Assembly (NCBI GenBank): GCA_002844335.1
Contig: CP019155.1
Span: 372,001-436,000, forward strand
Length of the DNA: 64,000 bases
Direction: 5' to 3'
From: Haloarcula taiwanensis
GTDB taxonomy: Archaea; Halobacteriota; Halobacteria; Halobacteriales; Haloarculaceae
The notes under the pieces were generated by a model that was not told the DNA's origin, searched no databases, and saw nothing but the letters and a program-made list of their open reading frames with translations. A program made the position numbers and the translations under genes. Shown here in pieces: positions 59,593-61,641 of the stretch; position 1 is the first letter of the stretch; every line of letters begins with the position of its first letter.

Positions 59593-60918
59593 ATGGCCCC
59601 GCATCGACGCCACCACCTTGCTCTCCTCTGTCTGGTCTGTACGTCGCTCCTCTGTATCGCTGTGCCTGCTGGCGCAGCACCGCCGCCGCGGCCGCTATGT
59701 GACGCCTGCGGTGACTCGTTTGCATCAACAGCCGAGTCACACGGTATTTCGGTCGCAGTCACTCACAGCAACGCCACCGTCACCGTCCACAACAACGGAA
59801 CCGCAACGTGGGTCGTCCACAACCGCCTGTCTGGCACAGAGGCGGCTGCACGTCTCCGGACAAACGAGAGTCTCCGAACCGCTATCGCCGACAGAGCGAT
59901 GTGGGATACCGAACTTCTGGGCGCGAACGTTTCTGGCGATGGCGTCATAACGCTGCGCTACCGCGAGCCTGACTTCGCCGAGCAGTCCGTCGGCGGGGCG
60001 GTCCGAACGGGTGAGTTTACCGAGGCCTACGGGTATCGAAACCTTGATGGCCTCGGTGCTGACCGACTCGTCGTCGTTGCACCCGACGGGATGCGAGTCG
60101 AGCGGCCCATCGACGGTGCAACCGTCTCAGACGACGGACAGCGGATGACACTGACCGAACTCAACGATGGACGTATCGTGACCTTTGTCCCCCGTGAGAC
60201 GGCTGTCGGGCCGCTGTTGAGCCTCCTTGCGCTCGGAGCACTTCTCGGTCCCGTGATGGCGGTGAAGGCACTCGCATACATCACCCTCCCCACAGCGGTA
60301 TTTACCCTCTTGATTGGCGCTGCCGCCGGGGGTGTTGCCTGGCTTGACTGGGAGTTCAAAGGAGTACGGGACTCCGTCGGCATTGTATTCGCCGGTGTCG
60401 GCGCGCTATCGGCTTCCCTGTCGCTTCTCGGAGCGATAGGCGTGTTACGGCTGGGCGGCACAGCAGCACCGCTGTTCGGCGGTGGCACTGCACTGTTCGT
60501 CTGTGGAATAGCCCTGTCACGGCGACGTATCCGTGAGCAGACGAGCTATCGGACGGTCGTCGTCGGCACAGTAGTCGGCGCAGGCATCGCGCTGGGAGCG
60601 ACGATAGCGGCGGCTCCGATGGTCGTCAGTGACGGTTCCACGCCCCCGGTGACAACGCTGCTGGTTCTCGGACCCGCGTTTGTCCTTTTCCCGGCCGGAT
60701 ACGCAGTCGGCCACGGGAACCGTCGGTTAGCAGTGAAGACGGCCGCTATCGGGTTCGTGCTGTCGATGCTACCGGTTCTCCCGGTACTCCCTGCGCCGTA
60801 TGGACTGGGCGTGCTTTTCATCCCCGTTGTCACGGCCAGTGCCGCTGCCGTTGTGATCGCCGGTCTCCCGATATTCCTCGCTGGAGTCTCGCTCGGTGTT
60901 CCGCAAACGTCCCGCTGA
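59593..60918 (+). CDS. exported-domain membrane protein of unknown function
   Basis: The 441-aa protein has a signal peptide (LALLCLVCTSLLCIAVPAGA), an exported beta domain (about 30-200) with a CDACG motif and HNNGTATWVVHNRL, and then about eight hydrophobic segments from residue 205 on. An exported domain followed by a helical bundle is common among haloarchaeal envelope proteins of unknown role. The gene is divergent from the ABC transporter across 451 bp. No catalytic motif is seen. Confidence 0.7.
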   Translation: MAPHRRHHLALLCLVCTSLLCIAVPAGAAPPPRPLCDACGDSFASTAESHGISVAVTHSNATVTVHNNGTATWVVHNRLSGTEAAARLRTNESLRTAIADRAMWDTELLGANVSGDGVITLRYREPDFAEQSVGGAVRTGEFTEAYGYRNLDGLGADRLVVVAPDGMRVERPIDGATVSDDGQRMTLTELNDGRIVTFVPRETAVGPLLSLLALGALLGPVMAVKALAYITLPTAVFTLLIGAAAGGVAWLDWEFKGVRDSVGIVFAGVGALSASLSLLGAIGVLRLGGTAAPLFGGGTALFVCGIALSRRRIREQTSYRTVVVGTVVGAGIALGATIAAAPMVVSDGSTPPVTTLLVLGPAFVLFPAGYAVGHGNRRLAVKTAAIGFVLSMLPVLPVLPAPYGLGVLFIPVVTASAAAVVIAGLPIFLAGVSLGVPQTSR

Positions 60919-60989
60919 CCGGTGGAACACATCGGTCAATTGAACTGGTGGCGCTCTCAGGGGAGTGGATTCGGCAGAGGGCAACGGCA

Positions 60990-61250
60990 CTAGCACCAGC
61001 GACTGTAACTGGACTGCACCTCTCGGCGTTCTCCCCGGGACTGCATAGCTCCACAGAGTATGAGTGCACTCGCGGCGAGTCCAGCGGTCCCACTAGCAAC
61101 ACCGAATCCGCCACCTATCTCAAACAGTGGAACCAGCGGTCTGAAAAGCAACGGTGAAACCCACACGTCCCGCACTTTGGCGGCCGCCATTTCCATAGTT
61201 TCGATTCCGGATGTGCTGGACGTAACCCGTGCTGCTTGAATCTGTGCCAT
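60990..61250 (-). CDS. small hypothetical protein, possible single membrane segment
   Basis: An 86-aa frame (MAQIQAARVTSSTSG) with a hydrophobic segment FEIGGGFGVASGTAGLAASALILCGAM near residues 48-74 and haloarchaeal third-position GC. It lies between the membrane-protein gene and the 5S rRNA gene, opposite in strand. No promoter or family is evident, so the call is tentative. Confidence 0.35.
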   Translation of the reverse strand: MAQIQAARVTSSTSGIETMEMAAAKVRDVWVSPLLFRPLVPLFEIGGGFGVASGTAGLAASALILCGAMQSRGERREVQSSYSRWC

Positions 61251-61304
61251 TGAGACAATGTGTCAGATTGTGATCCAACGACTCCCGTCATCAAGTAGCC
61301 ACTC

Positions 61305-61310
61305 TTATAA
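61305..61310 (+). promoter_or_regulatory. TATA box of the solitary 5S rRNA gene
   Basis: TTATAA within CTCTTATAAGC lies 23-28 nt upstream of 61333, the first base of the 5S gene by length, matching archaeal promoter geometry. It indicates that the gene can be transcribed on its own. Confidence 0.6.
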
Positions 61311-61332
61311 GCGTAGCTGGTAGAGTTATAGT

Positions 61333-61454
61333 ATAGGCGGCCACCGCGGTGGGGTTGCCTCCCGTACCCATCCCGAACACGGAAGATAAGCCCACCAGCG
61401 TTCCGGGGAGTACTGGAGTGCGCGAGCCTCTGGGAAATCCGGTTCGCCGCCACC
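61333..61454 (+). rRNA. rrf: 5S ribosomal RNA, solitary gene
   Basis: The 122-nt sequence contains the universal 5S core (CCCGTACCCATCCCGAACAC, then GAAGATAAGCCCACC and AGTACTGGAGTGCGCGAGCC) and closes with helix I, GGCGGC (61336-61341) pairing with GCCGCC (61446-61451). The length equals that of Haloarcula marismortui 5S, and by memory it differs at about three positions: the first base, one loop base (CCACCGCGG for CCACAGCGG) and AAATCC for AAACCC, the last changing a G-C to a G-U pair. No 23S rRNA precedes it and no tRNA follows; the neighbours are protein genes. The folding appears intact, so it may be functional. Confidence 0.93.
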
Positions 61455-61641
61455 ATTCATACCGCTTCTTACGTTCCGAGGAGCGACGACGTTGCTGTAG
61501 CTCAGCCTCGGAGTTATCGCGCACTCACAGACAGATCCCTGGTGCATCTCGAAGTATTTACAGCCGAATCGTTGCCCTGTCGCTGTCGATGCTAAGAACA
61601 GCGAACAATCCGTCATCCGCCAGGGGTCAACAGTCGCTCGA

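Follow-up and report, generated by a model that had tools for sequence, protein, structure and literature searches.

A conserved solitary 5S rRNA gene with its own promoter in one clade of Haloarcula

Introduction

The presence of a 5S rRNA gene apart from any rRNA operon on chromosome II of Haloarcula taiwanensis raises the question of whether this gene is a working source of 5S rRNA or the debris of a duplication. Haloarcula is a classic model for ribosome structure and rRNA heterogeneity, and only its rRNA operons have been regarded as a source of its 5S rRNA. PMC5368182 speaks of three operons whose 5S genes are identical, and an RNA-seq study lists just two 5S genes for H. hispanica (PMC9138242, Table 5). 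In Crenarchaeota and Thermococcales, it is normal for 5S genes to be unlinked (PMC8339473, PMC5627344). Among open-licence papers, the sole mention found of an extra Haloarcula 5S gene is one passing clause in PMC12650772, which credits a replicon of Haloarcula sp. NS06 with an "extra 5S rRNA copy". That paper takes up neither a promoter nor a comparison nor a function; the copy is probably the same gene as the one analyzed here.

The solitary gene and its neighborhood

The DNA analyzed (the window) is a stretch of 64,000 nucleotides. As searched with cmscan over its whole length, it contains a single RNA family match, a full-length 5S rRNA (Rfam RF00001; 80.5 bits against a gathering threshold of 38, E = 1.7e-15) that covers the model end to end, from position 1 to 120. 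The features of the locus are as follows.

59593..60918, forward strand: upstream neighbor, an ORF for a 441-aa predicted membrane protein; syntenic marker with homologues at the orthologous loci
61287..61305, forward strand: conserved upstream promoter element, consensus CC.AGTAGCTAC.CT, from an ungapped alignment of 14 species
61305..61310, forward strand: TATA box TTATAA, −28 to −23 from 61333, with a TATA in 14/14 orthologues
61333, forward strand: predicted transcription start at mature 5S nucleotide 1 (A), a purine in 14/14 solitary copies
61333..61455, forward strand: solitary 5S rRNA gene (RF00001), with a fold resembling that of the operon copy
61456..61463, forward strand: TTCATACC tail, a probable 3' end-forming signal common to operonic 5S 3' flanks
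about 62310 down to 61642, reverse strand: downstream neighbor, an ORF for a CcdA-like protein

The genome (PMC5794945) was sequenced with PacBio and comprises 3,721,706 bp, with contigs of 2,966,258 and 525,233 bp and two more. It has three 5S and two 16S genes. Chromosome I (contig C1) carries both 16S genes and the two other 5S genes; these 5S genes terminate the only two rRNA operons of the genome. BLAST with the genome's own 16S gene and 16S-to-5S interval detected no 16S or 23S anywhere in the window, and no 23S was found in the 20 kb fetched around the solitary gene. The full-length match and the absence of 16S and 23S from the window bear out the claim, made earlier by a reading of the sequence only, that a complete 5S gene stands here outside any rRNA operon. 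The protein genes which that reading placed on both sides are the membrane-protein ORF on the forward strand and the CcdA-like ORF on the reverse strand. Beyond the latter lie TlpA-like and SCO-family genes, annotated as such in H. marismortui pNG700 and H. sinaiiensis pHsi388. Signs of a pseudogene (indels, broken stems or a lost promoter) were absent: the 14 solitary copies described below carry no indels, and their helix II is 100% paired.

Orthologues and distribution

A TATA-to-5S pattern identified 14 solitary 5S genes, that of H. taiwanensis included, among 32 genomes of the genus. The remaining matches in these genomes were operonic copies with a TATA by chance in a tRNA-like arm. The orthologues belong to 14 Haloarcula species and are located on secondary replicons or unlinked contigs, among them H. 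marismortui pNG700 and H. hispanica pHH400; a separate search showed H. sinaiiensis pHsi388 to be a carrier. A pattern scan of the whole of GTDB, which was too unspecific and whose matches were mostly due to chance, named H. sebkhae, H. amylolytica and H. mannanilytica as carriers.

A full-length homologue of the 441-aa membrane protein is encoded upstream of the 5S gene at 12 of the 14 loci (H. taiwanensis counted), and CcdA–TlpA–SCO genes are found near most. In H. marismortui, H. hispanica and others, a nitroreductase-family gene stands between the membrane-protein gene and the solitary 5S. In the corresponding gap of H. taiwanensis (60919–61332) this gene is missing, with no significant match. 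The series of locus tags in the RefSeq records of H. marismortui, H. hispanica and H. sinaiiensis has a gap precisely at the solitary 5S, which suggests an RNA annotation at that place, the plasmid collection used being one without RNA genes. On H. hispanica pHH400 the gene occupies 122455–122577, with HAH_RS17870 as its predicted tag, and is absent from the published 5S gene table.

A tree of rpoB from 30 Haloarcula genomes groups the 14 carriers in a single clade (support 100/99), and the gene is present in all 14 species examined of this clade. One gain and no loss suffice to account for the distribution. No solitary gene was found outside the clade in the nearly closed genomes G002, G013–G015, G021, G023 and G018 (the last not on the tree); for fragmented drafts, absence is weaker evidence. 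Across 392 Halobacteriales genomes, a TATA-linked solitary 5S was found in no other genus, and the other pattern matches resemble either the tRNA-like elements of operons or unrelated sequence.

A general haloarchaeal habit of carrying solitary 5S genes on plasmids was considered and rejected. Seventeen other plasmid-borne 5S records were sampled, 15 of them from other genera, and all end complete rRNA operons. The expectation that haloarchaeal 5S genes are otherwise operon-terminal agrees with these 17/17 plasmid records and with the operonic copies of the genus Haloarcula, 47 of 47 usable ones.

Promoter and 5' end

The sequence-only reading had proposed a promoter of the gene's own, with a TATA box at −25. 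The promoter is conserved, and the box spans −28 to −23, an archaeal distance from the 5S 5' end that is kept among relatives. The spacing from TATA to the GGCGG of the 5S is identical in 14/14 solitary genes. Directly 5' of the TATA box and running into it is the conserved upstream element, so placed that the promoter consensus over the solitary loci reads, 5' to 3', CC.AGTAGCTAC.CTTATA..TGTGGC. In view of the fixed spacing and the conserved block in 14 species, a chance TATA was rejected.

The upstream element is possibly a BRE or an activator site. Elsewhere in the genome it has no convincing copy (9 matches at ≤3 mismatches versus 43 for the reversed control), and the idea of a regulon sharing it in H. 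taiwanensis was dropped. A promoter common with the rrn operons was likewise rejected, as the rrn promoters inspected look, by eye, of another type.

The first base of the gene is A in 13 and G in one of the 14 solitary copies; it is T in 47/47 operonic copies. Abutting the 5S is a T-arm-like stem of five bases with the loop TTCRANN in 47/47 operonic and 0/14 solitary cases. For Haloferax volcanii, Hoelzle et al. (2008; cited in PMC7714728) reported in vitro formation of the 5S 5' end by tRNase Z. According to PMC5627344, this enzyme presumably recognizes a tRNA-like structure upstream of 5S. The arm at the operonic genes agrees with this known site. The purine and the absent arm go back to one ancestral event and therefore cannot be counted as independent proof from each of the 14 species. 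A clade-wide gene, a missing tRNA-like 5' processing element and a start base that is now a purine all go beyond the sequence-only reading.

Comparison with the operonic copies

The two operonic 5S copies of H. taiwanensis are identical to each other. The solitary gene differs from them by four substitutions: 1 T>A, 13 A>C, 18 C>T and 62 G>A. In helix II, 18 pairs with 62; with both positions changed, C-G became U-A and pairing is kept. This comparison with all 5S copies of the genome, which the sequence-only reading had suggested, sets the gene apart from both operonic copies. The reading correctly had the gene differ from the Haloarcula 5S, and its count of about three positions becomes four against the copies of the same genome. 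The G-U pair that it noted is not particular to the solitary copy: the U at 106 (G-U pair 74–106) is also present in the operonic copies of H. taiwanensis. In H. marismortui, the operonic 5S genes are not all identical, and one (L066) differs from two others (L067 and L068) at 73, 106, 107 and the base after the gene.

3' flank

The sequence TTCATACCT or a one-base variant of it is found in 12 of the 14 solitary copies and in most operonic copies. The region past the solitary 5S showed no classical terminator. A short conserved block lies at 61485–61502 and at the same place in relatives (GAGCGACGCG...CTGTAG in the latter), about 30–50 bases downstream of the 5S. It is possibly a terminator or a 3' signal. 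A fold common to relatives was sought just downstream of the solitary gene and not found.

Origin and function of the solitary gene

The solitary gene is likely to be an additional 5S gene that is functional and transcribed independently of the operons. It would have arisen by one duplication, and its transcript would start at the mature 5' end and supplement the 5S supply. In the ancestor of the Haloarcula clade, the 5S portion of an operon together with at least 8 bp of 3' flank would have been duplicated to a secondary replicon, where the copy acquired, or landed behind, a TATA promoter. In effect, a promoter directing a start at the mature end would have taken the place of a processing element. 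RNA polymerase is predicted to initiate there, at the +1 purine, so that no tRNase Z cut would be needed; the operonic 5S, by contrast, would be freed from a long precursor at the tRNA-like element. The product would be a normal 5S that joins the ribosome pool, and the benefit would lie in a supply independent of rRNA operon transcription. Being kept in all 14 clade species examined, the gene is very probably a working second source of 5S and not debris. It is real and conserved and, as judged from sequence comparison, very probably expressed. The product is ordinary, and the arrangement is new for haloarchaea. Among the roles proposed in the sequence-only reading, an extra supply of 5S fits best, while an alternative 5S and a balancing of stoichiometry are possible. 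More tentatively, and on the unlikely side, the gene may constitute a second 5S route independent of tRNase Z, with a triphosphate purine start, regulation separate from the operons and a distinguishable ribosome subpopulation.

A regulated, specialized 5S was considered as an alternative, that is, a variant made under particular conditions such as temperature or salinity and destined for a ribosome subpopulation or a non-ribosomal role. The upstream element, being separate, conserved and different from the inspected rrn promoters, would suit this explanation, as would the condition-dependent use of divergent 16S genes for which Haloarcula is known (PMC5368182, PMC6373231). Nevertheless, a product specialized in sequence is expected to show shared substitutions, and beyond +1 no substitution separates all solitary from operonic copies. 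In G009 and G028, position 1 is the only difference of the solitary 5S from the operon copy compared. A regulated, specialized 5S is improbable.

A drifting duplicate or relic, whose shape is kept merely by gene conversion from operonic copies, is more improbable still. Conversion may occur, as the near-identity of the G009 and G028 genes to operon copies of the same genome indicates, and the solitary copies in G009, G016 and G020 share operon alleles at 106–107 with their own genome. Retention of the 5S sequence could thus come partly from conversion. Nevertheless, the promoter, which lies outside any conversion tract, is conserved and the flanks are not. Over the 14 loci, the mean pairwise identity in ungapped alignment is 0.97 for the 5S, 0.81 for −49 to −27 and 0.68 for −27 to −1; it is 0.71 for the first 10 bases downstream, 0.27–0.37 for the surroundings and 0.27–0.35 further upstream. 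Moreover, +1 has never been converted back to T, no losses are seen among the 14 species, and several copies are separated from their own operon copies by a full pair swap. This concerns pair 18/62 in H. taiwanensis, G005, G017 and G019; relative to the operon copies compared, both bases are always exchanged, and the swaps run in both directions across these genomes. The covariation score is 0.038 versus 0.026 for shuffled alignments (16/500 shuffles as high) and rests on one pair; with few variable sites, this support is formally modest. Conservation of the promoter outside the 5S tract appears to be the stronger argument for selection. Retention in 14 species, the conserved promoter, the fixed TATA-to-start spacing and the paired double change contradict the drifting copy that the sequence-only reading had entertained.

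That the assembly created the gene or cut short an rRNA operon is practically out of the question: no point was found in favor of this idea, the genome was sequenced with PacBio, the promoter occupies the place of the 23S that was looked for directly upstream, and it is already refuted by H. marismortui, H. hispanica and H. sinaiiensis, whose genomes, each sequenced independently, have the same gene in the same neighborhood.

Relation to known systems

In its predicted transcription as a gene by itself, the solitary 5S resembles the unlinked genes of Thermococcales (P. furiosus PF_r003 and PF_r004) and Crenarchaeota, which also lie apart from 16S–23S, those of P. furiosus having predicted promoters of their own (PMC5627344, PMC8339473). 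In those groups, however, the unlinked genes are the only 5S source, whereas in Haloarcula the gene is additional to operonic copies. In P. furiosus, the promoter lies about 60 nt upstream and yields a 5' precursor, while the promoter position in Haloarcula implies a start at the mature end. Compared with the operonic rrnA/B/C 5S of Haloarcula, the solitary gene has a nearly identical product and the same TTCATACC 3' flank; it differs in lacking an upstream 23S or tRNA-like arm, in having its own promoter and in starting with A or G instead of T.

A surplus of 5S over 16S and 23S is also known from bacteria, as in the second 5S of E. coli rrnD and the 13 5S genes beside three operons in Syntrophomonas wolfei (PMC7283268). 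In E. coli, deletion of 5S genes is reported to cost more fitness than that of the same number of 16S or 23S genes (cited in PMC7283268). The extra E. coli gene lies inside an operon, whereas that of Haloarcula is on another replicon with its own promoter. The apparent swap of a tRNase Z element for a promoter offers a simple in vivo test of whether 5S supply needs operon linkage or tRNase Z, and the single-base tag at +1 lets the share of the solitary 5S in ribosomes be counted.

Other additional 5S genes

A second kind of unlinked 5S, without 23S, was observed in a Haloarcula-group genome (L043:4001-4122; G008:C5:135376-135497). It is 89% identical to the H. taiwanensis operon copy, has a paired change in helix I (A5-U) and is closely preceded by an arm-like hairpin whose loop is altered. 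It seems to have arisen by a separate duplication from the end of an operon. Genome G016 seemingly has six rRNA operons besides the solitary 5S, two of them on short contigs of 13–19 kb that may be small replicons or assembly fragments. In addition, a tandem second 5S is located about 190 bases past the first at operon ends on a plasmid of Natrinema sp. SYSU A 869 (L131) and in another genome of the order (L108, G057).
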